Source of the DNA: Methylotenera sp. | Lineage (GTDB): Bacteria; Pseudomonadota; Gammaproteobacteria; Burkholderiales; Methylophilaceae | Length of the DNA stretch: 64,000 nucleotides | Direction: 5' to 3' | Assembly: GCF_029946165.1 (NCBI RefSeq) | Contig: NZ_JAQSDZ010000001.1 | Coordinates: forward strand, 248,001 to 312,000 | In this document: positions 24,077-39,810 of the stretch, one piece after another | Layout of the letters: every line of letters starts with the position of its first letter | How positions within the stretch are numbered: position 1 is the stretch's first letter | Program-made: the position numbers and the translations under genes | Notes under the pieces: model-generated | What the model was told of the DNA's origin: nothing | The model's input: the letters and a program-made list of their open reading frames with translations, nothing else | Database searches by the model: none

Positions 24077-24634
24077 TTAAGCTGGTATTGCAACTACTTT
24101 GTAAGTCAATTCTTTAGCTTTTTTAGTTTTACCTGCACGTGAAGGCACGTGGCATAAATTACATACGTATTGTTTATTTAAGTCATAATTATTCACAATA
24201 AAACTACCGCCACAGCAGTTGCAACCTTGCATTTTGAGCATTTTGCTTTCAACAAAACGAACTAATGTCCAAGCACGCGTCATTGACAGTACTGGCTCTT
24301 CATCGCCCTCTTGTTCCACTTGTTGTAAGTAAAGACTATAAGCTTTTATGATGGCATGTATGCCTTTTTCATCGGTGTAATCCACCATGAATTTATAAAT
24401 ATTATAGAAAATAGAGGAATGAATATTTGGCTGCCAAGTCAAGAACCAATCAGTAGAGAAAGGTAACATACCTTTTGGTGGCGATACGCCTTTTAATTCT
24501 TTGTATAGTTTGATTAAACGTTCACGAGATAAGGTTGTTTGAGATTCAAGAAGTTGTAATCTAGCACCTAATTTAATCATTTTAATCGCTAGCTGGATTT
24601 GTTCCGCTTCATTCACTACACTTTTCTTGTCCAT
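24077..24634 (-). CDS. flhC: FlhC flagellar master transcription activator
   Basis: Subunit of the FlhD4C2 activator of class II flagellar promoters, 185 residues. Cys138, Cys141, Cys158 and Cys161 form the paired C-x-x-C zinc site near the C-terminus (GCNCCGG and VCNLCHVPSRAG). The block TDWFLTWQPNIHSS is also typical. GAGGAG lies seven bases before the ATG. It is 46 bases downstream of flhD, the usual flhDC order. FlhDC-type control is found in enterobacteria and many betaproteobacteria, which helps place the organism. Confidence 0.96.
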   Translation of the reverse strand: MDKKSVVNEAEQIQLAIKMIKLGARLQLLESQTTLSRERLIKLYKELKGVSPPKGMLPFSTDWFLTWQPNIHSSIFYNIYKFMVDYTDEKGIHAIIKAYSLYLQQVEQEGDEEPVLSMTRAWTLVRFVESKMLKMQGCNCCGGSFIVNNYDLNKQYVCNLCHVPSRAGKTKKAKELTYKVVAIPA

Positions 24635-24680: not shown

Positions 24681-25001
24681 TTAATGTGCCATTGTTTCGG
24701 CATTTTGGCCGGCCATTAGAACAGCCGCATGCAAATGTGCCTGTGAGCGATCTTTTGTATAATTTGTTAACATGCCTAAAATTGCGCTATCATCAAAACG
24801 GAAACGTGCTAGCATCATGTTGGCATTGCTGAGTTTTAGTAATTGCAGATTGCTTAAGCCTTCAAGCAAATCCGCAATGTCTTTACTAATTCCTAAACGG
24901 AAAATTGCAGTGGCTTTATCTGAACGAATTAATTGTTGAGCCAACATTAAGTAATTTAAGTTCGCATCTTTAATTTCTGCCATCATTTCTGATTCGTTCA
25001 T
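24681..25001 (-). CDS. flhD: FlhD flagellar master transcription activator
   Basis: Partner of FlhC, 106 residues from the chosen start. The N-terminal helix MNESEMMAEIKDANLNYLML and the following AQQLIRSDKATAIFRLGIS match the FlhD core; MMLARFRFDD is also conserved. The frame extends to an ATG at 25013, but the sequence between (GGGGAATAAA) looks like the ribosome site for the ATG at 25001, which also matches the length of E. coli FlhD before its first helix. It is the first gene of the leftward flhDC unit, with a 700-base regulatory gap upstream. Confidence 0.95.
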   Translation of the reverse strand: MNESEMMAEIKDANLNYLMLAQQLIRSDKATAIFRLGISKDIADLLEGLSNLQLLKLSNANMMLARFRFDDSAILGMLTNYTKDRSQAHLHAAVLMAGQNAETMAH

Positions 25002-25013
25002 TTTATTCCCCAT

Positions 25014-25730: not shown

Positions 25731-26930
25731 ATGGCAGAAGACAGCGATTTAGAAAAAACAGAACAGGCCTCCCCCAAGCGCTTAGATGAAGCTCGGAAAG
25801 AAGGTGACGTGCCACGCTCTCGCGAGTTGGCGACTGTAACTGTGCTTTTCACCGCTGGCTTAACCATAGTAATGATGGGTGACCACCTTAATCAAGCTTT
25901 GAAAACCACAATGAGTACTGGTTTAAAGCTTGATCGGACGGCAGCATTTGAACCCACCGTCTTATTAATGAGAACAGCTGATTCTATTTATTCATTGTTA
26001 ACGGCGTTCGCACCATTAGCTTTAATTTTAGTAGCCGTCTCCATTGCAGCCCCAGTGTTGGTAGGCGGTTGGATATTTAGTGGTAAAGCATTCGTTCCAA
26101 AATTTAGCCGTTTGAATCCTATTAAAGGCTTAACCAATATTATTTCTAAAAATTCACTAGTTGAATTAGTTAAATCAATTGCAAAAGTCATGCTGGTAGG
26201 AATAGTAGCCTATACAGTGATTTCAAATGATATGGAACCGATACTTACCTTATCTTCATTGCCTTTGAAATCTGGCATCTCCGAAGTGGGGAGTTTAATG
26301 TTGACGGGATTTTTAACCATCGTCAGCACCTTAGTATTTATCGCTGCGATTGACGTGCCCTATCAACTTTATCAGTACGCTAATAAGTTAAAAATGAGTA
26401 AAGAGGAAGTTCGCCGTGAGTCTAAAGAGTCTGACGGTAATCCAGAGATTAAAGCCAAAATTCGTCAACAACAACGTGAAATGGCTAAACGCAGAATGAT
26501 GTCTGAAATTCCAAACGCAGACGTGGTAATTACTAACCCTACCCATTATGCCGTAGCGATTAAATATCAAGATGAAGGTATGCGTGCTCCTATAGTTGTG
26601 GCTAAAGGTGCTGATGAAGTTGCACTTAAGATTCGTGAAATTGCTGGCGAACATAAGGTATTAATCATGGAATCACCAAAGTTGGCGCGTGCTATTTATG
26701 CACATACTGAACTTGGTAACGAAATCCCTGAAGCTTTATATTCAGCAGTGGCAGAAGTGTTGGCTTATGTGTTTCAAATGCGTATTTTCAAAAAGGATGG
26801 TGGTTTCTACCCAGAAATTCCAACAACACTTGCTGTACCAGATGCGCTGGATCCTCATAGCTTATTGCCTAAGCCTAGTGTTCTAGATAATAGTGTAGTA
26901 GAGAATGAAGAAGCAGGAGTATTCATCTAA
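25731..26930 (+). CDS. flhB: FlhB, flagellar type III export switch protein
   Basis: Export-gate protein of 399 residues in the flagellar basal body; it switches substrate class when it cleaves itself. An acidic, Lys-rich N-terminus (DSDLEKTEQASPKRLDEARKE) is typical. Four membrane segments follow, then the cytoplasmic domain with the self-cleavage site N269-P-T-H (ITNPTHYAVAIKY). AGGA lies six bases before the ATG. It opens the rightward operon and its stop overlaps the flhA start by one base (TAATG). Confidence 0.97.
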   Translation: MAEDSDLEKTEQASPKRLDEARKEGDVPRSRELATVTVLFTAGLTIVMMGDHLNQALKTTMSTGLKLDRTAAFEPTVLLMRTADSIYSLLTAFAPLALILVAVSIAAPVLVGGWIFSGKAFVPKFSRLNPIKGLTNIISKNSLVELVKSIAKVMLVGIVAYTVISNDMEPILTLSSLPLKSGISEVGSLMLTGFLTIVSTLVFIAAIDVPYQLYQYANKLKMSKEEVRRESKESDGNPEIKAKIRQQQREMAKRRMMSEIPNADVVITNPTHYAVAIKYQDEGMRAPIVVAKGADEVALKIREIAGEHKVLIMESPKLARAIYAHTELGNEIPEALYSAVAEVLAYVFQMRIFKKDGGFYPEIPTTLAVPDALDPHSLLPKPSVLDNSVVENEEAGVFI

Positions 26931-29014
26931 TGAACGCACTTAACTTACCTCCTTGGATGAATAAATTCGGAAGTCGTAACGTTGCGGCGCCAGCCATTAT
27001 CATCTTGCTATTAGCAATGATGATATTGCCATTACCAGCAGTTATTCTAGATGTGTTGTTTAGTTTCAATATCGCCATTTCGATTATGGTATTGCTCATT
27101 GGCTTACAAACTAAAAAAGCGCTCGATTTCATCGCATTCCCAACTGTTCTATTAATGACAACCATGTTGCGTTTATCACTTAACGTAGCTTCAACTCGTG
27201 TAGTGTTAGCTGAAGGTCATAACGGCCCTGACGCTGCTGGTAAAGTAATTGAAGCATTTGGACACTTCTTAATCGGCGGTAACTACACAGTTGGTATCGT
27301 GGTATTCGTGATTCTAACTATCATCAACTTTACGGTGGTGACTAAAGGTGCTGGCCGTATTGCAGAAGTTGGCGCACGTTTTACCTTAGATGCGATGCCT
27401 GGTAAACAAATGGCGATTGACGCTGATTTAAACGCAGGTTTAATTGGCGAAGATGAAGCACGTCGCCGCCGTTCTGAAGTGAGCCAAGAGTCAGAATTTT
27501 ACGGCGCTATGGATGGTGCAAGTAAATACGTACGTGGTGATGCAATCGCTGGCATCATGGTGATTATCATTAATATCGTTGGCGGTTTAGTAGTAGGCAT
27601 TGTGCAACATGATTTAGCCTTTGCTGATGCGGTTAAGAACTACACCATGTTAGCGATTGGTGATGGCTTAGTAGCACAAATTCCATCACTTATCATTTCA
27701 GTGGCTGCCGGTGTGGTGGTATCACGCGTTGCTAATAACGAAGATATTGGTGGTCAGTTAGTTACACAGTTATTCTCAAACTCTAAAGTGGTGTATGTCA
27801 CAGCTGGCATCATTGGCGGCATGGGTGCTATTCCAGGTATGCCACATTTTGCCTTCTTGTTATTAGCTGCAATATTAGCGGGTATTGGATACTTTATTGC
27901 TGAACAGAAAAAAGCTGAAGATGCTGAACCTGTGGTAGAAGAGAAAGTTGAAGTGCTTTCAACATTAGAAGAGGCGACTTGGGATGATGTCACGCCAGTT
28001 GATTTAATCGGCCTTGAAGTTGGCTACCGCTTGATTCCTTTGGTAGACAAAGCGCAAGGCGGTGATTTACTTAAACGCATTAAAGGTTTACGCAAAAAAT
28101 TCGCGCAAGAAGTTGGTTTCTTAGCACCGACTGTGCACATTCGCGACAACTTAGAACTAAAACCTTCTAACTATAAAATCACGCTTAAAGGTGTGGAAAT
28201 TGCTAGCGGTGAATCTAATTACGCTCAATTCTTAGCCATAGACCCAGGCATGGTGTCTGGCCCTTTACCCGGCACAATGACTACCGATCCGGCGTTTGGC
28301 TTACCAGCAGTGTGGATAGATAGCAACATGAAAGATGAAGCTCAAAACATGGGTTACACCGTGGTTGATGCTGGCACTGTCATTGCAACACACTTGAATC
28401 ATATTATTTCTCTTCATGCTGCTGAGTTGCTTGGTCGCCAAGAAGTGCAACAATTGCTAGACCATATCAGCAAAGATTCACCAAAATTGGTTGAAGACTT
28501 AACACCAAAACTATTATCACTGTCCGTGATTCAAAAAGTATTGCAAAACTTATTATCTGAAGGCGTTCATATTCGCGATATGCGTACGATTGTAGAAACG
28601 CTTTCAGAATATGCAACGCAAACGCAAGATACCAGCGAGTTAACCGCCGTAGTGCGTGTTCAGCTAGGTCGCGCCATCGTGCAACAACTATTCCCCACTG
28701 GCAATGAAGTCACAGTAATGACGCTTGATAGCAACCTTGAGCGCTTATTAACTCAAGCAATGCAAGGCAATGGCACAGCGGGTTCAGCCATAGAGCCAGG
28801 CATGGCAGAAACATTGTCTAGACAAGCAGAAACTGCTGCTAAACAACAAGAACAAATGGGTATGACACCGGTATTACTAGTGTCAGCCCCTCTTCGCGCG
28901 GCGTTATCTAAATTCTTACGCCGCGCAGTACCGCATCTTCGTGTGTTATCGCACGACGAATTACCTGATTCAAAAACCATACGTGTTACTAGTCTTATTG
29001 GAGGTTCAGCATGA
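26930..29014 (+). CDS. flhA: FlhA, flagellar type III export gate
   Basis: Export-gate protein of 694 residues that docks chaperone-substrate complexes and uses the proton-motive force. About eight membrane segments fill the first 330 residues; the FHIPEP-family signature is seen in FPTVLLMTTMLRLSLNVAS followed by TRVVL. The cytoplasmic ring domain is at about 350-694. GGAG lies close to the ATG, and the end overlaps the flhF start by four bases (ATGA). Length is normal for the family. Confidence 0.98.
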   Translation: MNALNLPPWMNKFGSRNVAAPAIIILLLAMMILPLPAVILDVLFSFNIAISIMVLLIGLQTKKALDFIAFPTVLLMTTMLRLSLNVASTRVVLAEGHNGPDAAGKVIEAFGHFLIGGNYTVGIVVFVILTIINFTVVTKGAGRIAEVGARFTLDAMPGKQMAIDADLNAGLIGEDEARRRRSEVSQESEFYGAMDGASKYVRGDAIAGIMVIIINIVGGLVVGIVQHDLAFADAVKNYTMLAIGDGLVAQIPSLIISVAAGVVVSRVANNEDIGGQLVTQLFSNSKVVYVTAGIIGGMGAIPGMPHFAFLLLAAILAGIGYFIAEQKKAEDAEPVVEEKVEVLSTLEEATWDDVTPVDLIGLEVGYRLIPLVDKAQGGDLLKRIKGLRKKFAQEVGFLAPTVHIRDNLELKPSNYKITLKGVEIASGESNYAQFLAIDPGMVSGPLPGTMTTDPAFGLPAVWIDSNMKDEAQNMGYTVVDAGTVIATHLNHIISLHAAELLGRQEVQQLLDHISKDSPKLVEDLTPKLLSLSVIQKVLQNLLSEGVHIRDMRTIVETLSEYATQTQDTSELTAVVRVQLGRAIVQQLFPTGNEVTVMTLDSNLERLLTQAMQGNGTAGSAIEPGMAETLSRQAETAAKQQEQMGMTPVLLVSAPLRAALSKFLRRAVPHLRVLSHDELPDSKTIRVTSLIGGSA

Positions 29015-30516
29015 ACATAAAACGATTTTTCGGAAAAAACTCACGGGAAGCACTCAGCATGGTGCGTAAAGAACTGGGAGAAAATGCGGTGATATTATCT
29101 AACCGTGCGATGAATGGTGGCAATGAAATCATGGCTTTCAAAGAAGAAGACATGAATGCTATGGTCGCCAGAGATGAAAATCAGCAGCGCTCATTTAGTG
29201 AAGAGAGCAATGATGCTCCTACTCTATTGTCTTTGCTCAGCAAAAATAATCGCAATAAATCAGCTGACATTCAGACGAGTAATAACGAGTCTTCATCAGC
29301 TGAAATTGACGATTATGATGAGATTGTAAGGCGTGCTGAATTAAAAAATAACGCTAATATGAATAGGCAAGCTGAAGTTCAAAAACAAACTGCGCCAGTA
29401 AGACAAGCGGCACCTTTAAGACAGGTTGCACCAGCAAGACAAGCTACACCAGAAAAACCAGTGATGCAACAAACTAGTCGACCAGTAGCGCCTGTCCGCC
29501 AGACAGCTAACCATAATCCGTTGCCTAGCATTCAATCTAATCAACAAATGACTGATATGTTGAATGAAATGCGTAATATGCGTAGCGTGATTGAGTCGCA
29601 ACTTACGGCTATTTCTTGGGGCAATATTCAACAGCGTGATCCTATTAAATCAAAAATGTTAAGCACATTGTTATCTGCAGGCTTTAGCGCTGCACTCTCA
29701 AGACAGTTAACCGAGAAAATGCCTGGAAATCTTAGCGAAGAAAAAGCATTGGCATGGATTAAAGCTATTCTTAGCATTAATTTAAATACTATAGAAAATG
29801 AAACTGAAGTATTGGATCAAGGTGGAATTTTTGCGCTTATCGGCCCAACTGGTGTAGGTAAAACCACTACGACTGCCAAATTAGCTGCGCGTTATGTGAT
29901 GAAGCATGGCACAGAAAACTTAGGCATTATCACTACAGATGCTTATCGTATTGGCGGTCATGAGCAGTTAAGAATCTACGGCAAAATTTTAGGCGTAATG
30001 GTGCATGCCGTAAAAGATGAAGCTGATTTAAAAATCGCGCTTAACGAGCTAAAAAACAAACATACCGTGCTGATTGATACCGTAGGCGTTAGTCAACGTG
30101 ACCGTATGGTGACTGAGCAAATCGCTATGCTTTCCAGCACCAACATGCCTGTAAAAAAATTGTTGTGCCTTAATGCAACTAGCACAGGTGAAACACTTAT
30201 TGATGTCATTAAAGCCTACAAACGTAAAGGCTTAGAAGGTTGCATCATCACAAAATTAGATGAAGCGGCTACAATCGGCAGCGCCTTAGATGTGGTGATT
30301 AGAGAAAAAATTAAACTGTATTACGTAGCGAATGGTCAACGTGTACCTGAAGATATTCATCTCGCTAATAAAGCTTTTCTGATTCAGCACGCATTAAAAC
30401 TTAAATCCATTAACAATCAACCATTCCAATTTTTGAATGATGAATTGCCATTGGTAATGGGCAATACGGTTGGCAACACAATTCAAACTAAGCTAGCGGG
30501 GTTAAGCCATGTCTAA
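29011..30516 (+). CDS. flhF: FlhF, SRP-type GTPase placing flagella
   Basis: Signal-recognition-particle-type GTPase of 501 residues that marks the pole or site of flagellar assembly. An N-terminal basic part (MNIKRFFGKNSREALSMVRKE) is followed by a long disordered linker with repeats of A-P-V/L-R-Q at about 128-165, then the N and G domains. P-loop GPTGVGKTTT is at 278-287; DAYRIGG, DTVGVSQRD and TKLDEA are the other GTPase motifs. All key residues look intact. It overlaps flhA by four bases and flhG by eight, as expected for a partner pair. Confidence 0.97.
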   Translation: MNIKRFFGKNSREALSMVRKELGENAVILSNRAMNGGNEIMAFKEEDMNAMVARDENQQRSFSEESNDAPTLLSLLSKNNRNKSADIQTSNNESSSAEIDDYDEIVRRAELKNNANMNRQAEVQKQTAPVRQAAPLRQVAPARQATPEKPVMQQTSRPVAPVRQTANHNPLPSIQSNQQMTDMLNEMRNMRSVIESQLTAISWGNIQQRDPIKSKMLSTLLSAGFSAALSRQLTEKMPGNLSEEKALAWIKAILSINLNTIENETEVLDQGGIFALIGPTGVGKTTTTAKLAARYVMKHGTENLGIITTDAYRIGGHEQLRIYGKILGVMVHAVKDEADLKIALNELKNKHTVLIDTVGVSQRDRMVTEQIAMLSSTNMPVKKLLCLNATSTGETLIDVIKAYKRKGLEGCIITKLDEAATIGSALDVVIREKIKLYYVANGQRVPEDIHLANKAFLIQHALKLKSINNQPFQFLNDELPLVMGNTVGNTIQTKLAGLSHV

Positions 30517-31342
30517 TTTCCATCAAGATCAAGCAGCTGGATTGCGCCGTATTATGGCGGCACCAAAGCCAAGAGTAGTGTCGATTATCTCTGCAGATAT
30601 CACACAAGATCAACCACGCATGATGACTAATTTAGCGGCTTCAATATTCGGCCAAGGTAGCGATGTGCTGGTAGTACATGCCTCGCAAGAGTCGCGTGAA
30701 GTTAAATATGGTGTAGATAAATTACCCTCATTATTTGATGTGATTTTTGAGGTGAATAACGAAGATTTTTCAATATCTGACGCCATTAGCAACACTAGCT
30801 ATGGTTTTAACGTAGCTAAGCTTATGCAAAAAAGACAATTCAACATTGATATGGAAAGTGATGAATGTGAACTGACTAATCAACTGTTTAATGAGTTAGC
30901 TCATGACTATGAAATTGTGTTGGTGGATGCAACGCTTAATAAAGATAATTTACTACCGCTAAAAATTCTTAACAATGGCGAAATCATTATTCAATTAACA
31001 CGTCAGCCAGAGTCTATTACCAATGCTTACACGCTCATCAAACAAATATGTAGTGAGCTGGGCAGGCGCTCTTTCGGCATTATTGTAGATAACGCAACTG
31101 ATGCTCAAGCGCAAATCGTATTCCGCAATATCTCGCAAGTTGCACGACGTTTCATGCAAATAGAATTAGAGTTCTTTGGCTCTATTCCTTGTGATGACCA
31201 TCTTAGCCGTGCCGCTAAACTGGGTCGTTCAGTGATTGATGCATTTCCATTAGCAAGCGCTTCAACCGCTTTTAAGCAGATTGCACAACGACTAGATTAC
31301 AAACATGATGGCACCGCCATTCACCAAATGGCATCTATCTAG
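30509..31342 (+). CDS. flhG: FlhG/FleN (MinD-like) with degenerate ATP-binding loop
   Basis: MinD/ParA-family protein of 277 residues that normally limits flagellar number and stimulates the FlhF GTPase. The N-terminus keeps the FlhF-activating D-Q-A-x-x-L-R motif (DQAAGLR, 7-13). The deviant Walker A expected after the first strand (consensus KGGVGKT) is replaced: RVVSIISADITQDQPRMMTN has no G-K-T/S. The following strand ends DVLVVHAS instead of the usual D-A-D, and the Walker B strand is YEIVLVDATLN. So it is probably unable to bind or hydrolyse ATP as FleN does. The rest of the fold and the position between flhF and fliA fit FlhG. It overlaps flhF by eight bases. Confidence 0.85.
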   Translation: MSNFHQDQAAGLRRIMAAPKPRVVSIISADITQDQPRMMTNLAASIFGQGSDVLVVHASQESREVKYGVDKLPSLFDVIFEVNNEDFSISDAISNTSYGFNVAKLMQKRQFNIDMESDECELTNQLFNELAHDYEIVLVDATLNKDNLLPLKILNNGEIIIQLTRQPESITNAYTLIKQICSELGRRSFGIIVDNATDAQAQIVFRNISQVARRFMQIELEFFGSIPCDDHLSRAAKLGRSVIDAFPLASASTAFKQIAQRLDYKHDGTAIHQMASI

Positions 31343-31357
31343 GCTAAAGGTTTTACA

Positions 31358-32092
31358 ATGTATACCATTCATGGAAAAAAAGACCAGAAAGACGAACTGC
31401 TAAACAAGCATGCCGTTTTGGTTAAAAAGCTCGCCTATCAGCTTAAAGCCAAACTGCCCCCCAGTGTTGAATTAGACGACTTAATACAGGCGGGCATGAT
31501 GGGCTTACTCGATGCGATTAATCGCTACGAGGATACCCATGGCGCACAGTTTGAAACTTATGCTGCGCAGAGAATTCGCGGCTCTATGCTAGACGAGCTG
31601 CGCAGTGCAGACTGGTTGCCACGTAGTGTACGCAAGAACATGCGTGATGTAGAAGTAGCCATCAGTCAGCTAGAACAACAATTAGGCAAGCCTCCAACGG
31701 AAAATGAAGTAGCTAAAAAACTACAGCTTCCATTGAATGATTACTATGACATGTTGGGTGATTGCAGTGGTCACCAATTAATTTACTACGAAGATTTCCA
31801 TGAATCAGAGGGTGGTGATCACTTTCTTGATCGCTTTAATGCTGATAGCAAGGGTGACCCCATAAAAAGCTTACTTGAAAGCGACTTCCGTGAAGCTTTA
31901 GTAAGTGCAATTACCGCCCTACCTGAACGTGAAAAAATACTGATGGGATTGTATTACGAACAAGAACTAAACTTAAAAGAAATAGGTGCGGTGATGAACG
32001 TTTCTGAATCACGCGTTTGCCAATTACACAGCCAAGCAGTCGCTAGGTTGCGTTCCAACCTAAAAGAGAAATCATGGACTGGAGCAGTTTAG
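31358..32092 (+). CDS. fliA: FliA, sigma-28 flagellar sigma factor
   Basis: RNA polymerase sigma factor of 244 residues for late flagellar and chemotaxis genes. Regions 2 (DLIQAGMMGLLDAINRYE, FETYAAQRIRGSMLDELRSADWLPRSVR), 3 and 4 (LPEREKILMGLYYEQELNLKEIGAVMNVSESRVCQLH) are all present. Its anti-sigma FlgM is encoded at 40706-41026. It starts 15 bases after flhG, and its end overlaps motC by 19 bases. Confidence 0.97.
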   Translation: MYTIHGKKDQKDELLNKHAVLVKKLAYQLKAKLPPSVELDDLIQAGMMGLLDAINRYEDTHGAQFETYAAQRIRGSMLDELRSADWLPRSVRKNMRDVEVAISQLEQQLGKPPTENEVAKKLQLPLNDYYDMLGDCSGHQLIYYEDFHESEGGDHFLDRFNADSKGDPIKSLLESDFREALVSAITALPEREKILMGLYYEQELNLKEIGAVMNVSESRVCQLHSQAVARLRSNLKEKSWTGAV

Positions 32093-33675: not shown

Positions 33676-36600
33676 CTAGCTATTTCTTAGCAAATTAGAT
33701 TTAACCAGCACTTCAAATTGTTCGATAGGCACAGGTCTTCCAAAGTAGTAGCCTTGGAAATGCGTACAACCATTATTCAGTAGTAAGCCTTGTTGTTCTT
33801 CAGTTTCTACACCTTCTGCAATGACATTTAGATTAAGTGTATGCGCCATTGCCACTATTGTCCTTACAATTGCCTGATCACTCGTATCCACGGCAATATC
33901 GCGGACAAATGATTGATCAATTTTGAGCTGATACAAAGGTAAGCGTTTAAGATACTGTAATGAAGAATAGCCAGTGCCAAAGTCATCTAACGAGAAGCGA
34001 ATACCAATCTCTTTCAATCTACTCATAGTAGTAACGGTATCTTCAATATTATCTAGCAACATGCTTTCAGTAAGCTCTAGCTTTAGCAGCATGGGGTTAA
34101 CTTCACTGCGCTGAAGCGCTTCACGTACTTGATTAACAAAATCAGTTTGGCGGAATTGCTTAGCACTTACATTAATGGATAAAGTAAGACTACTTGTCAT
34201 CTCATCTTTTTCCCATATTTTTAACTGATTACAAGCAGTTTCTAATACCCATTGGCCAATGGGTAGAATCAAACCAGTTTCTTCTGCAAGCGAAATAAAA
34301 TGGAATGGAGAAACTAAGCCATGCTCAGGGTGCATCCATCTGATGAGGGCTTCTGCGCCTATTGATCGACCAGAAAGATCTACTTGAATTTGGTAGTATA
34401 AATGTAATTGCTGCTTATCTATGGCTTTGCGTAACTCGCGCTCTAAGTCTACTCGGGTATTAATCACTTCTTGCATTTTCGGGTCAAAAAACCGTATGGT
34501 ATTGCGCCCAGCTTTTTTTGCCTGATACATGGCAATATCCGCATGTTTCAGCAGCTCTTCTTGGGACTGATTATGATTACTAAATAATGCTACGCCAATA
34601 CTGGGTGTGCAGTGATATTCATGTTGGCCAAGTTGGTAGGCTTGATTCAAAGAGGCAAGGATTTTCTCGCCTATAACCTCAACCTGAGCCGCTGCTTCAG
34701 GCGCATCTTGACTCAAGCTTTCTAGTAACACCACATACTCATCACCGCCTAATCGAGCAACCGTATCTCCTTCTCGCACACAACCCACCAAACGCTCGGC
34801 AACTTGTTGGAGTAATAAGTCGCCCACATCATGACCCAGCGAGTCATTGAGTGTTTTGAAATGATCTAAGTCCAAAAATAATACTGCACCGTCTCGACCT
34901 GTACGCGCATTAAAGACCAACGCTTGATTAAGTCTATCCACCATGAGACGTCTATTTGGCAAACCAGTCAATGAGTCATAAAAAGCCAGATGCTTAATTT
35001 CTTCGGCGGCGGCTTTATTCATGGTGATATCGGTGAGGGTAGCCACATGATTGGTCACAATACCGTAGACATCTTTAACTACGGTCACGGTCAAATGTTG
35101 AGGGAAAACTTCACCATTTTTACGTCGATTATAAACTTCTCCCGCCCAATGACCTGTGGCGTGCACGCATTCCCACATAGCATCATAAAAGCCTTCGCTA
35201 TGTTGACTGGAGCTTAATAAGCGTGGCGTATGACCTACTGCTTCTTGAGCGGTGTAACCAGTAATATCACAAAAAGCTTGATTGACTTTCAAAATGATAT
35301 TCTTTGCATCTGTCACCATCATGCCTTCTTGCGATTCAAAAGCAATTGAGGCAATACGCAGGTCATCTTCACCTTGCTTACGCTCAATAGCAATACTTGC
35401 TAGATTAGCAGACTGCTCAATCAGCGTAATATCTCTTGGCGTGGGTGCAGTTTGATGGCGATGATAGATGGCAAATGTACCAAGTATTTTGCCGCTATGA
35501 GCCAAAATCGGCTGCGACCAACAAGCGGCCAATCCAGAGTTGATGGCTAAATCTTGATAGCTCTCCCAATAAGGATGTGTTGCTATATCCTCAACAATGA
35601 CACGCTCCCCAGTAAATGCGGACGTGCCACAAGAGCCAACACCCTCGCCAATCTCAGTGCCATCAATCGCAGCATTATAAAATGTAGGTAAACTTGGAGC
35701 AGCCATGGTAACCAGATGCTTACCTTCTGCGTCGATCAACAAAACACTACAGAGCATTTCAGGGTTAAATTGTTCTACACCAAGTACAATCGCTTCAAGA
35801 ATATCTTTTAATGTTAAGTCAGCAATCAAAAGCTCTAATACGCGGCTACGGAATTGCTCAAACATTTCAGCATGCTTGCGTTCATTAATATCCCGCGAAA
35901 AGCCAACTGTCCCCACTACTTCCCCATCTATAGTGACGGGTGACTTATAGATTTCATACCATCTTTTCCGACCATTGATCTCAACAATTTCTTCAGAAGC
36001 TTTTGGCACACCATTTTTCAATACGGCGATATCATCCGAGCGATATTTTTTTGCTAGCTCAATAGGCCAAACATCTAGGTCAGTTAAACCTAACAATAAA
36101 GCTTCTGAATCGTATTCGCTGGCTTCAATAAAAGATTGGTTTACAGCAAGGTAGCGATGCTTTTTGTCTTTCAACCAAACCATAAATGGAAAGTTATCTA
36201 ACAATGAGCGCTGGTAACCTTCGCGTAACTGCATCAATTGCTCAGCCTGTTTAAGTTGAGTCACGTCTTCTAGCGTCACACGTAATATAGGCTGATCCTG
36301 ATCCTCATCATCATCCATACGTAAGCAATGAAGGTTTGCGTTAAATATAGCGCCATTTGCACCAGCAAGCTTAAGGGACAAGCTTAATTCTTCCCCGCCC
36401 TGCATTTCTTTAATCATCTTGAACTGACGACGCCAAAACTTTTTGTCATCTTCTATGACAAATTCCTCAAACCGATGCTGATTAATATCTTTACGTTGCA
36501 AGCCAAACATTGAGGTCACCTTCCAGTTGACCTCAGTAATCATGCCATGCTTAGTGATAGATAAATAACCAATAGGTGCAAACTCATACAAATCGACATA

Positions 36601-39600
36601 GCGCTCGTGAGACTCCAACAACTCACGTTGCATCCGTTTTAGCTTTTCTTCTGCGAGTTTGCGTTCTGTAATGTCTATTTGCGTACCGATCATACGCAAA
36701 GGGTTGTTATTTTCATCGCGACTCACAAGTATGCCGCGACTCAACATCCATTTGTAATGACCGTCTTTACATCTTATACGATACTCAACCATGTAAATTT
36801 CTGTTTTACCATCAAGATAGTCATTACCAGCTGCGATTACTCTTGGTTTATCTTCAGGATGAAGAAGCGCTCGCCATTCACCCCGCGTGGGCAGAATCTC
36901 ACTTGGTTCATAGCCGAGCATTTCTGCCCAGCGTTTAGAGTAGGTCGCTTCCTCAGTCTGGACGTTCACGTCCCAGACGCCATCGCCTGAACCTTCAATG
37001 GCAAATTTTGAGCGATATTCGCTTTCAATTAAAGCTTCCTCAGCTTTCTTACGCTCTGTAATATCTAGCACCGTGCACACATAATAGTTAACGTTATCAT
37101 GATCGTCTTTTATTGCAGTGAGCGTGAGTTGCCCTAGATAAATATCGCCATTCTTACGCTTATTCCAAACTTCACCACTCCATGTGCCAAGCTCTTTAAC
37201 CGTCGTCCATATCTCTACGTAAAAAGCAGGATCATGTTTATCTGATTTAAGGATATCAATAGACTGACCAATGATTTCTTTGTCTGAATATCCAATGGTC
37301 TCAGTAAACGCAGCATTCACTCTCACAATTTTGCGTTCAGCATCGGCGATAAGAATACTTTGTTGAGATTCAAAAGCTGTCGCCGCGATGCTTAGTTCAA
37401 GTTCAGCTTGTTTACGTTTACTAATATCGGTACTTGTACCTATCATACGTAATGGCTTGCCTTGCTCATCACGGCTCACCACCATGCCACGACCTAATAT
37501 CCACTTGTAGCTACCGTCTTTACACTTTATTCGACATTCAACTCTATAAGTGGAGATTTTCCCCTCTAAATACAAACGCATCTCTTCCTCAACCCGCGCC
37601 ATATCATCTGGGTGGAATCGATTTGTCCAGCTTTCACCCGTTGGAAGTATATCTACTGGGGCATAACCAATTATTTCTTTCCAGCGAGCACTATGCTCCA
37701 TGGCATCGGATTGAATATCCCAATCCCAAACTCCGTCGCCAGAACCTTCAATCGCAAATTTCAAACGCTCATCTTTCGCCTTTAAGTCGGCCTCTAGCTG
37801 CTTACGCACGCTTATGTCACTAATAGTACCAACCATACGCAATGGTTTGCCATTTGAATTTCGGTCTAAGACTATACCGCGATCGTGTATCCACTTATAA
37901 CTACTATTGTTAGTGCGTATCCTATACTCACACTCAAATGTGGTTGTAACTTCATCAAGACACTTTTGCAAATTGGTAAACACCGCCGCTTTATCATCTG
38001 GATGAACACGAGACTGCCATTCATCTAGCTTATGATTATGCTCATGTTCAGCGTAGCCTAAAATGTCTATCCATGCTTTTGAATAAGTAATTGTTCGGGT
38101 GACCTCATTTGAATCCCATAAATAATCACCAAATCCTTCAATAGCAAATTTCCAGCGCTTATCCCGCGCCATTAAATCTTGTTGAATTTTTTTAAGCTCG
38201 GTAATGTCAACAACGCTAATAAAAAAACCGTCAACCTGATTTTGCTCATCCATGTTGGGAGTGAAATGTACCAAACCATACATTTCACCGAAACCTGAAA
38301 TATCAGTTTTAAATTCAAACTTAACAGTTTCGCCAGCTATTGCCCGCCTAGCATATGGCTCTTCTTGCTCTAATAAATCTTCACCGAGAATTTCTCGCAT
38401 CGTATGCCCAAGAATTTCTTCTTTAGACTTAGCAAAAACAGTCATATATTGGTGGCTTACATAAACATAGCGGAAGTCATTATCCACACGTGAAGCCGCA
38501 ACGGGTATGTTGTTCATGACTAAATTCAGTTCGCGCTCATTACTTTCCATGCGCTTAGCCATCGTATCGAATTCCTGAGAGGTCTTTGCGAGCTCATCAT
38601 TGCCCCACAAATTAGCGCGAGCCTTCATATCACCTAAACCATAACGTCGCACAGTATCAGCTAAAATTTGAAGACGTTTAATAATGTTACGCTGAACTGC
38701 CGAATCAATTAAAAAACCTATTAATAAGCCAATAGCAAACACGATGCCAACTAAAGAATAAAATAATTGACGCATTGGCGCTAAAATCTCATTCACAGGC
38801 ACTAAGCGCATATAGCGCCAATCTAGGTTAGGCATATGCGCGTCAATAGCGAGGTATTCTCGGCCGTTAATGGTCACCTGCTTATCATATAAATGAGTAT
38901 TCAAACTTGGTTCTTTGTGCACTAAAAGCTCAGCCAAGTCTGGTTCTTGAGTTAGATCCAACTTAAACGTATCTGGATGAGCTATCAGTTGTTTTTGCCA
39001 CGGGCCAGCGTCGATGAAGTCACCTTGTGCATCCATCAATAAGTGTTGCTCGCCAGAATAGCGCTCACTTTTTTGCATTAAGGAAGGAAGCGTTTTAGTA
39101 ATACTAATATCGCGCCCAATTGTCCCTATCCATTTGCCTTTAACATGTAGCGGTAAAACGGCACTTATAATCCAACTACTCGAGACTGGATCAAGCATCG
39201 GAGGCGTCCAACGCACTTCACGTTTGGGGTTTGTGGCCGGGTTACCTAACGTCAGCCAAGGTGTTTGAGTGTAATCTGTATCAGCTTTGATTAAAGCTGC
39301 GAATTCTGGATAAAGATGATCGTAAATAACTTCAGTTTTATCATTAGTCAGCAACCATATATTGCCATATGCAGTGGTAATTGACGTGCCGTAGATATCA
39401 AGTAAATGTTTACTGCGTACATGCAGACTTTTTTGCTCAGCATCTAATACCGCATCTGGCGGTAAAAACACTCCTGCTTCAGTGCGCCCATCAAAACCTT
39501 CGCGTCGATTGCGCCATGCATTATCTGGGTAGCGCTGTATCAATCGGTCAAAGGTTGCGGCTTCTTCCACCTTAGGCGGCTCGGCTAGGGTTTTCTCAAG

Positions 39601-39810
39601 CGTGCTTGACAATGCTTTTAGGCTGAACTCATAACCTAGAAGTGTTTGAGTATTAGTTGCGACAATTGTTTGAGTTTCATTGGTAAGTGTAACTGCTTCA
39701 TTAGCAAGCAAGTTATGCTTTAAGTACAGATAAATACCCGCTAAGGCAGGTATAACCACTAGTAAAACACTAGCCACCACAATGAGTAATAATTTGTGGC
39801 CGACTTTCAT
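33676..39810 (-). CDS. Giant Cache-HAMP-multi-PAS-GAF-GGDEF-EAL cyclic-di-GMP protein
   Basis: Protein of 2044 residues predicted to make and break cyclic-di-GMP. In order: membrane helix 7-30, periplasmic Cache-like sensor to about 340, second helix about 348-370, HAMP, then about seven PAS domains, a GAF domain (around 1320-1480), one more PAS, GGDEF and EAL. Three PAS units share an F-A-I-E-G-S/F-G-D opening and look recently duplicated. The GGDEF site is intact (ARLGGDEYVVLLE) with an inhibitory R-E-G-D five residues before it. The EAL site also looks intact (GAEALIRW, DDFGTGYSSLQYL, LKIDQSFV). The two activities may be alternative. It sits tail to tail with motD; a link to motility is plausible but inferred. 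The ATG at 39810 gives a good N-terminal membrane helix. Confidence 0.93.
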   Translation of the reverse strand: MKVGHKLLLIVVASVLLVVIPALAGIYLYLKHNLLANEAVTLTNETQTIVATNTQTLLGYEFSLKALSSTLEKTLAEPPKVEEAATFDRLIQRYPDNAWRNRREGFDGRTEAGVFLPPDAVLDAEQKSLHVRSKHLLDIYGTSITTAYGNIWLLTNDKTEVIYDHLYPEFAALIKADTDYTQTPWLTLGNPATNPKREVRWTPPMLDPVSSSWIISAVLPLHVKGKWIGTIGRDISITKTLPSLMQKSERYSGEQHLLMDAQGDFIDAGPWQKQLIAHPDTFKLDLTQEPDLAELLVHKEPSLNTHLYDKQVTINGREYLAIDAHMPNLDWRYMRLVPVNEILAPMRQLFYSLVGIVFAIGLLIGFLIDSAVQRNIIKRLQILADTVRRYGLGDMKARANLWGNDELAKTSQEFDTMAKRMESNERELNLVMNNIPVAASRVDNDFRYVYVSHQYMTVFAKSKEEILGHTMREILGEDLLEQEEPYARRAIAGETVKFEFKTDISGFGEMYGLVHFTPNMDEQNQVDGFFISVVDITELKKIQQDLMARDKRWKFAIEGFGDYLWDSNEVTRTITYSKAWIDILGYAEHEHNHKLDEWQSRVHPDDKAAVFTNLQKCLDEVTTTFECEYRIRTNNSSYKWIHDRGIVLDRNSNGKPLRMVGTISDISVRKQLEADLKAKDERLKFAIEGSGDGVWDWDIQSDAMEHSARWKEIIGYAPVDILPTGESWTNRFHPDDMARVEEEMRLYLEGKISTYRVECRIKCKDGSYKWILGRGMVVSRDEQGKPLRMIGTSTDISKRKQAELELSIAATAFESQQSILIADAERKIVRVNAAFTETIGYSDKEIIGQSIDILKSDKHDPAFYVEIWTTVKELGTWSGEVWNKRKNGDIYLGQLTLTAIKDDHDNVNYYVCTVLDITERKKAEEALIESEYRSKFAIEGSGDGVWDVNVQTEEATYSKRWAEMLGYEPSEILPTRGEWRALLHPEDKPRVIAAGNDYLDGKTEIYMVEYRIRCKDGHYKWMLSRGILVSRDENNNPLRMIGTQIDITERKLAEEKLKRMQRELLESHERYVDLYEFAPIGYLSITKHGMITEVNWKVTSMFGLQRKDINQHRFEEFVIEDDKKFWRRQFKMIKEMQGGEELSLSLKLAGANGAIFNANLHCLRMDDDEDQDQPILRVTLEDVTQLKQAEQLMQLREGYQRSLLDNFPFMVWLKDKKHRYLAVNQSFIEASEYDSEALLLGLTDLDVWPIELAKKYRSDDIAVLKNGVPKASEEIVEINGRKRWYEIYKSPVTIDGEVVGTVGFSRDINERKHAEMFEQFRSRVLELLIADLTLKDILEAIVLGVEQFNPEMLCSVLLIDAEGKHLVTMAAPSLPTFYNAAIDGTEIGEGVGSCGTSAFTGERVIVEDIATHPYWESYQDLAINSGLAACWSQPILAHSGKILGTFAIYHRHQTAPTPRDITLIEQSANLASIAIERKQGEDDLRIASIAFESQEGMMVTDAKNIILKVNQAFCDITGYTAQEAVGHTPRLLSSSQHSEGFYDAMWECVHATGHWAGEVYNRRKNGEVFPQHLTVTVVKDVYGIVTNHVATLTDITMNKAAAEEIKHLAFYDSLTGLPNRRLMVDRLNQALVFNARTGRDGAVLFLDLDHFKTLNDSLGHDVGDLLLQQVAERLVGCVREGDTVARLGGDEYVVLLESLSQDAPEAAAQVEVIGEKILASLNQAYQLGQHEYHCTPSIGVALFSNHNQSQEELLKHADIAMYQAKKAGRNTIRFFDPKMQEVINTRVDLERELRKAIDKQQLHLYYQIQVDLSGRSIGAEALIRWMHPEHGLVSPFHFISLAEETGLILPIGQWVLETACNQLKIWEKDEMTSSLTLSINVSAKQFRQTDFVNQVREALQRSEVNPMLLKLELTESMLLDNIEDTVTTMSRLKEIGIRFSLDDFGTGYSSLQYLKRLPLYQLKIDQSFVRDIAVDTSDQAIVRTIVAMAHTLNLNVIAEGVETEEQQGLLLNNGCTHFQGYYFGRPVPIEQFEVLVKSNLLRNS

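Follow-up and report, generated by a model that had tools for sequence, protein, structure and literature searches.

How can a MinD-like flagellar ATPase be maintained in a bacterium in which its ATP-binding site has been lost? The question is raised by flhG of Methylotenera sp., which lies in a stretch of 64,000 nucleotides (the window; positions 248,001 to 312,000 of contig NZ_JAQSDZ010000001.1). In published accounts, FlhG is an ATPase, and control of flagellar number depends on its ATP-dependent cycle. The product of the window gene is, as judged from its motifs, a pseudo-ATPase in which the helix that activates the partner GTPase FlhF is kept, and we put the probability that this ATPase-dead FlhG is retained as an assembly factor and as an activator of FlhF that needs no nucleotide at roughly 0.7. 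The gene and the relevant parts of its product are as follows (window coordinates).

30509..31342, + strand: flhG, predicted ATPase-dead FlhG orthologue of 277 amino acids (FleN/FlhG structure matches; position between flhF and fliA)
30527..30547, + strand: FlhF-activating (enhancer) helix motif DQAAGLR, residues 7-13 (invariant in 18 sequences)
30593..30616, + strand: former deviant Walker A loop, residues 29-36, ADITQDQP where GKGGVGKT belongs (alignment)
30677..30685, + strand: former A'/switch I strand end, residues 57-59, HAS where DAD belongs (alignment)
30926..30928, + strand: switch II aspartate D140, kept (invariant in 18 sequences)
30956..31294, + strand: conserved C-terminal half of the FlhG fold, residues 150-262

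Loop and switch residues were placed by alignment with FlhG proteins whose loop is intact, S28 of the window protein being aligned with the serine that precedes GKGGVGKT. Of the deviant-Walker features of MinD/ParA proteins, neither GKGGxGK[TS] nor DAD was found, both lysines of the deviant Walker A site were gone, and only the switch II aspartate remained. The alignment bore out what an earlier note, made from the letters of this DNA alone, had described: the DQAAGLR helix at residues 7-13, the replacement of the KGGVGKT loop by ADITQDQP, and the loss of DAD from the next strand. A shifted or second Walker A site was ruled out, as GxxxxGK[ST] occurs nowhere in the open reading frame. The C-terminal amphipathic membrane-targeting helix (FFVERLI in relatives) was also missing, and the protein ends YKHDGTAIHQMASI, soon after the last core helix.

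The earlier note had treated the protein as a single oddity, which did not hold, for the pattern is a clade-wide state. In a search of the family Methylophilaceae, 72 of 150 genomes matched, and 69 copies were read from 62 of the 72 (loci L031-L050, many of them from repeat genomes already counted, are omitted; 15 of the 20 named relatives are called Methylotenera). DQAxxLR was present in 69/69 of these copies, and GxxxxGK[ST] was present anywhere in the open reading frame in 0/69, so that chance is not a worry for the motif pattern. Loop length and composition varied widely within the family. Seven genomes of the window's genus carried two near-full-length flhG copies each, neither with a P-loop (L011/L081, L013/L082, L008/L083, L007/L084, L010/L085, L015/L086, and L014/L087).

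At the scale of the order (Burkholderiales), 200 genomes were drawn evenly, of which 125 matched flhG and 134 had FlhF above the cut-off. One flhG from each of 129 genomes (41 families) was tabulated. Not in the table are three loci next to flhF that gave no FlhG match (L210, L216, and L220), nine intact paralogs (L077, L190, L194-L196, L198, L200, L202, and L206) and the ParA-like L204, these ten being without DQA, further loci from a genome already represented, matched genomes whose loci were not retrieved (e.g., G157), and G288 and G296. Strict DQAxxLR was present in 126/129 genes, GKGGxGK[TS] in none of the 129, and the full set of four nucleotide-site residues (two lysines, switch I aspartate, and switch II aspartate) likewise in none. 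A Walker A motif was found in 27/129 genes by pattern and in 26/129 in register (that of G222 being out of register), two genes counted as lacking it showed a chance pattern further on, and both lysines were kept in 4/129. By tblastn, flhF lay in the same stretch in 125/129 loci. Three of 24 plasmid-collection records were read by eye as named examples: FlhG of Burkholderia glumae BGR1 (DQAEGLR and GPVGVGCT) and that of Cupriavidus metallidurans CH34 (DQAESLR and ADAGAGAT) had no loop lysine, and FlhG of Aeromonas caviae (DQASGLR and GKGGVGKT) was intact. The first two records give Betaproteobacteria; Burkholderiales as lineage, in support of what we take to be the case, namely, that the sampled order (GTDB Burkholderiales) corresponds to the betaproteobacteria.

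That the window protein still binds nucleotide through a rebuilt loop, with the switch persisting in altered form, would agree with the kept fold, with the kept D140, and with the in-register Walker A motif of the 26 order members. We consider it unlikely, given the lack of GxxxxGK[ST] from all 69 family copies, the wide variation of the loop in length and composition within the family, and the loss of DAD from the window protein.

Outside the order, a Walker-bearing order FlhG was used as the query, which may favour canonical relatives. At an expect value (E) of 1e-20, 97 of 185 genomes of the class (the window's own included) matched, and 50 of the other 96 were read. All 50 genes had GKGGxGK[TS] and all four nucleotide-site residues, and 48/50 loci had flhF in the same stretch. 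Strict DQAxxLR was found in 34/50 genes; the remaining 16 lacked it, a few of them having near forms such as DQAAGMR (loci read from L229-L258 and L263-L282). A draw of 150 genomes from the phylum gave 98 with a match, and 30 loci from these were read (G355 counts in the class set of 50 as well). Of the 30, the 29 from outside the order were canonical, and the remaining locus, from an order member (L300, G164), was noncanonical. With the caveat of the query, the pattern read from these motifs is reciprocal: the order keeps the helix and loses the ATP site, whereas outside it the ATP site is kept and the helix is sometimes lost. The C-terminal membrane helix, assessed by a simple pattern, was present in 47/50 class genes versus 9/69 family copies.

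The open reading frame at 30509-31342 is flhG by synteny, fold, and phylogeny. Its neighbours in the window are as follows.

24077..24634, - strand: flhC, master regulator subunit (FlhC, 300 bits)
24681..25013, - strand: flhD, master regulator subunit (FlhD, 144 bits)
25731..26930, + strand: flhB
26930..29014, + strand: flhA
29011..30516, + strand: flhF, partner signal recognition particle-type GTPase, intact
31358..32092, + strand: fliA, flagellar sigma factor

The cluster runs flhB, flhA, flhF, flhG, fliA, motA, motB, with flhD and flhC upstream on the opposite strand; flhG sits directly between flhF and fliA, as expected of an orthologue, and its first 8 bases are shared with the 3' end of flhF. 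FlhF was intact, as the earlier note had held (G motifs by eye; 276 bits against TIGR03499, cut-off 174). The window protein matched Pseudomonas FleN (phmmer E of 2.5e-17, residues 123-263) and the FlhG structures 4RZ2/4RZ3 (E of about 1e-8) and stayed below all curated Pfam and NCBIfam cut-offs (AAA_31, 20.2 of 27 bits; minD_arch, 49.6 of 201.75), as did the Walker-bearing order FlhG P0003 with respect to NCBIfam. It grouped with the FlhG proteins of its relatives in a tree of 98 rows. Structure modelling, which had been proposed as a check on the motif reading, predicted a MinD-like fold (18 sequences; mean predicted local distance difference test score [pLDDT], 73; predicted template modelling score, 0.75), and the ten best Foldseek matches of the model were all FleN or FlhG (template modelling score of 0.58-0.66 by query length). 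A helix was modelled at residues 8-17, with low confidence at residues 1-9. Directly beside motA/motB, a protein of 2044 amino acids is encoded at 33676-39810 (- strand) in which repeated PAS-like and GGDEF/EAL-like domains were seen by eye.

The history of the loop was assessed on a tree of 98 proteins from which the helix, loop, and switch I columns had been excluded; the tree was built quickly and has long branches, with 45 of 95 inner branches open, so that the inner order is unsure. Canonical and noncanonical proteins were split by one branch (Shimodaira-Hasegawa-like approximate likelihood ratio test, 100), and a single loss of the canonical loop, at the base of the sampled order, is probable. 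The direction of change is read as loss because relatives outside the order are canonical. The three states together took 9 changes on the best tree; within the order, 8 changes were needed for Walker A, for which supported branches force at least 3. Outside the family, arginine was the commonest residue in the column of the signature lysine (36/124 loci), and we infer from this that the signature lysine was lost first and the P-loop lysine later, several times. Membrane helix and Walker A went together by pattern (25/27 versus 35/99), with 3 independent pairs on supported branches; with so few pairs, a link between the two losses was not established.

Selection was estimated from the ratio of nonsynonymous to synonymous change (dN, dS; ratio, omega). 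Against the four closest of six relatives, omega for flhG was 0.08-0.10 (dS exceeding 1.4 in two of the four); in the same comparisons, it was 0.05-0.07 for flhF and 0.03-0.04 for fliA in the three with computable dS. For residues 123-267 of FlhG, omega was 0.04-0.07 in the 4 of 6 comparisons with computable dS, two of which had dS above 1.5. flhG is under purifying selection (omega of about 0.1). The loss of the catalytic motifs, together with the eroded or truncated protein found in some families, might have been taken as the mark of a decaying pseudogene, but the frame is open in 62 family genomes, every family copy has the helix, omega is low, and flhF accompanies nearly all order loci, so that we regard decay as highly improbable.

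A natural remnant was found in two genomes of one genus (G169 and G296), in which a frame of about 117 amino acids after flhF consists of DQAEGLR followed directly by the C-terminal half, the loop-bearing half being absent. It overlaps flhF and is followed by fliA (L228:1197-1547 and L283:1606-1956); its length assumes a start at the TTG that overlaps the flhF stop. Between the two genomes, 81 codons from the helix on gave a dN of 0.017 and a dS of 0.109 (3 and 6 changes, which is few), and the whole remnant from the helix on gave an omega of 0.32, that is, weaker constraint.

These data bear on the rival view that FlhG of this clade is an ATP-independent scaffold, either a constitutive dimer or a binder of the flagellar C-ring (FliM/FliN), for which the helix is one of several contacts and C-ring assembly, not FlhF activation, is the main role. 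Within the genus, conservation of the C-terminal half is strong (residues 214-224, RFMQIELEFFG, are invariant in 18 sequences), a few of its columns are more than 90% conserved across the order, part of it is retained with the helix in the remnant, and FlhG binds FliM or FliY according to a 2025 review (PMC12826062). Across the order, however, the helix was the best-conserved block (mean column identity of 0.78 versus 0.43 for the C-terminal half; strict motif in all but three genes) and is the piece known to act on FlhF, and FlhG dimerization is ATP dependent where studied (PMC12826062). We therefore hold a scaffold to be possible, if less probable than retention as an FlhF activator.

Another ATPase, such as a second FlhG, MinD, or a ParA-like protein, could in principle have taken over the ATP-driven part. 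The window's genome is a draft of 2.94 Mb in 27 contigs, listed as 100% complete. A search with the window protein returned only itself, with a gene in a contig gap being possible; a second intact flhG, which would have spoken against the earlier note, was thus not found in the draft. When an intact GKGGVGKT paralog or the canonical FlhG of Aeromonas served as the query, the matches were the window flhG and distant P-loop proteins, namely, a ParA-like protein (266 amino acids), an Mrp-like protein (363 amino acids; both labels from sequence reading), and a protein of 304 amino acids, to which the Aeromonas query added two further weak matches. No MinD exceeded the TIGR01968 cut-off in the window's genome (5 of 14 control genomes pass), and the Min system may be missing from it.

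Elsewhere in the order, seven loci (L077, L194, L195, L196, L198, L200, and L202) encode an intact MinD-like protein with GKGGVGK[TS] and without DQA, next to a diguanylate-cyclase-like open reading frame (GGEEF in 6/7). They lend some weight to such a takeover, as does the effect of MinDE on flagellation in Escherichia coli (PMC12826062), but none of the seven has flhF in its stretch, and the window's draft holds no such paralog, its P-loop proteins being only the distant ones named above; a takeover thus seems quite unlikely. Two further loci, L190 (G293) and L206 (G251), contain an apparent second flagellar cluster with an FlhF-like open reading frame, an intact FlhG-like protein without DQA, and fliA. 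The L190 and L206 proteins fall among class sequences in the tree, and lateral gain of these clusters is therefore likely.

According to the earlier note, the protein may be a permanently monomeric FlhF activator, so that flagellar number would be set in another way in this organism, in which FlhDC, and not FleQ, is the master regulator. FlhDC is present in the window, and no clear FleQ was found across the order (the best PF06490 score in 200 genomes was 37 bits, among weak receiver-like matches); in the class, 66 of 185 genomes had PF06490 at 40 bits or more. FlhC was above the cut-off in 72 of 200 order genomes (E below 1e-70 in 61). Among helix-bearing order genes, Walker A was gone in 42/51 with a strong FlhC (E below 1e-70) versus 57/75 without, or in 49/58 versus 50/68 when every FlhC above the cut-off was counted, and the tree held too few independent pairs for a paired comparison. 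FlhDC as the cause of loop loss was thus not borne out, there being no clear association. The PF06490 match of G307 belongs to a response-regulator/AAA protein that could not be called FleQ; some of the least degraded loops occur in the family of G307 (f37). Some relatives outside the order, such as G369 and G514, have canonical FlhG with only weak PF06490 matches, from which it follows that loss of FleQ alone is insufficient. That no clear FleQ was found is consistent with loop loss, but neither FleQ loss nor FlhDC explains the latter alone. What survives of the earlier interpretation is an FlhG orthologue without an ATP site, with the helix, under purifying selection, and with no second intact FlhG found; the explanation by FlhDC is not supported in the form in which it was given.

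On the preferred reading, that of a nucleotide-independent FlhF activator, the window protein would not cycle between a monomer and an ATP-bound membrane dimer; a monomeric state and an inability to bind ATP are predicted from the loss of the ATP site. FlhG as otherwise described dimerizes on ATP and binds the membrane through its C-terminal helix, and the helix glutamine is a co-catalyst of FlhF (PMC12826062). Q8 of the window protein would enter the FlhF dimer and activate GTP hydrolysis with no nucleotide on FlhG, which would end the action of FlhF at the nascent basal body. Contact with the C-ring or FlhF would probably be kept via the conserved C-terminal half. FlhG would seemingly be made by translational coupling with FlhF, given the 8-base overlap, and timing would be set by the dose of FlhG and the GTP cycle of FlhF itself rather than by ATP. 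Activation of FlhF without nucleotide is deduced from the co-catalytic role of the glutamine and from the importance of FlhF in a species in which the loop lysine is missing from FlhG.

Several observations weigh against this reading. Deviant Walker A mutants of Vibrio alginolyticus FlhG lose polar localization and number control and are hyperflagellated (PMC7226244), which might lead one to expect no activity from an FlhG that is blind to ATP; in the same study, a hydrolysis-dead, ATP-binding mutant was nearly normal. A pseudo-ATPase can still bind nucleotide, and the 26 Walker A keepers of the order, together with the four genes that keep both lysines, suggest that some members of the clade may still bind ATP. 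Strict DQAxxLR is missing from three order genes (G217, G316, and G240, with near forms in the first two), and the two genomes with an apparent second flagellar cluster encode an FlhG-like protein that is intact but has no DQA. Order-wide, C-terminal columns 171, 175, and 222 (Y, K, and G) match or exceed the helix columns in conservation, so that selection may act on more than the helix. Confidence in the model is moderate, with pLDDT below 50 at residues 1-9 and 230-277. Finally, Bordetella bronchiseptica has FlhF and is yet peritrichous, so that FlhF is no guarantee of polar flagella in the clade (PMC7064773).

Compared with known systems, the window protein shares with FlhG/FleN/YlxH, the MinD-like FlhF partner of Vibrio, Shewanella, Pseudomonas, and Bacillus, the flhF-flhG-fliA order, the DQAxxLR helix, and the MinD-like fold; it differs from them in having no deviant Walker A, DAD, or C-terminal membrane helix and, in its genome, no clear FleQ/FlrA to anti-activate. 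The 16 gammaproteobacterial FlhG/FleN proteins from outside the order without strict DQAxxLR, which have the same fold and mostly flhF in the stretch, are the reverse case, their ATP site being intact and the strict helix motif missing. In Campylobacter jejuni, Gulbronson et al. reportedly found in 2016 that the ATPase domain of FlhG is unnecessary for number control and that FlhG influences the FlhF GTPase. The likeness lies in function without ATPase activity; the C. jejuni protein is said still to contain the ATPase motif, whereas that of the window FlhG was lost in evolution. The result listings of our searches of the open-access literature, from which subscription papers are mostly absent, contained no account of the loss of the ATP site from FlhG of betaproteobacteria, which is not proof of novelty. 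The review of December 2025 makes no mention of it in the sections and passages covered and calls the role of FlhG without FleQ/FlrA an open question (PMC12826062), and in the passages covered of a study of polar flagellates, FlhG orthologues were counted by gene with no comment on the motif (PMC7064773).

A large clade that has the FlhF-activating helix and lacks the ATP site amounts to a separation-of-function experiment made by nature, and it bears on the role of FlhG where FleQ/FlrA is absent. The motif pattern suggests that the window bacterium and its sampled betaproteobacterial relatives regulate their flagella without an FlhG ATP cycle. More broadly, and with somewhat less than even odds, the betaproteobacteria as a group may run the FlhF/FlhG switch without ATP: the ATPase would have been lost in their common ancestor, leaving a nucleotide-blind FlhF activator that one genus trimmed to the helix and half the fold, and flagellar number and place would depend on the GTP cycle of FlhF and on protein dose alone. 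The enteric flagellar system, which lacks flhFG, is said to derive from betaproteobacteria; if the broader proposal is true, that system would stem from an ancestor that was already ATP free.

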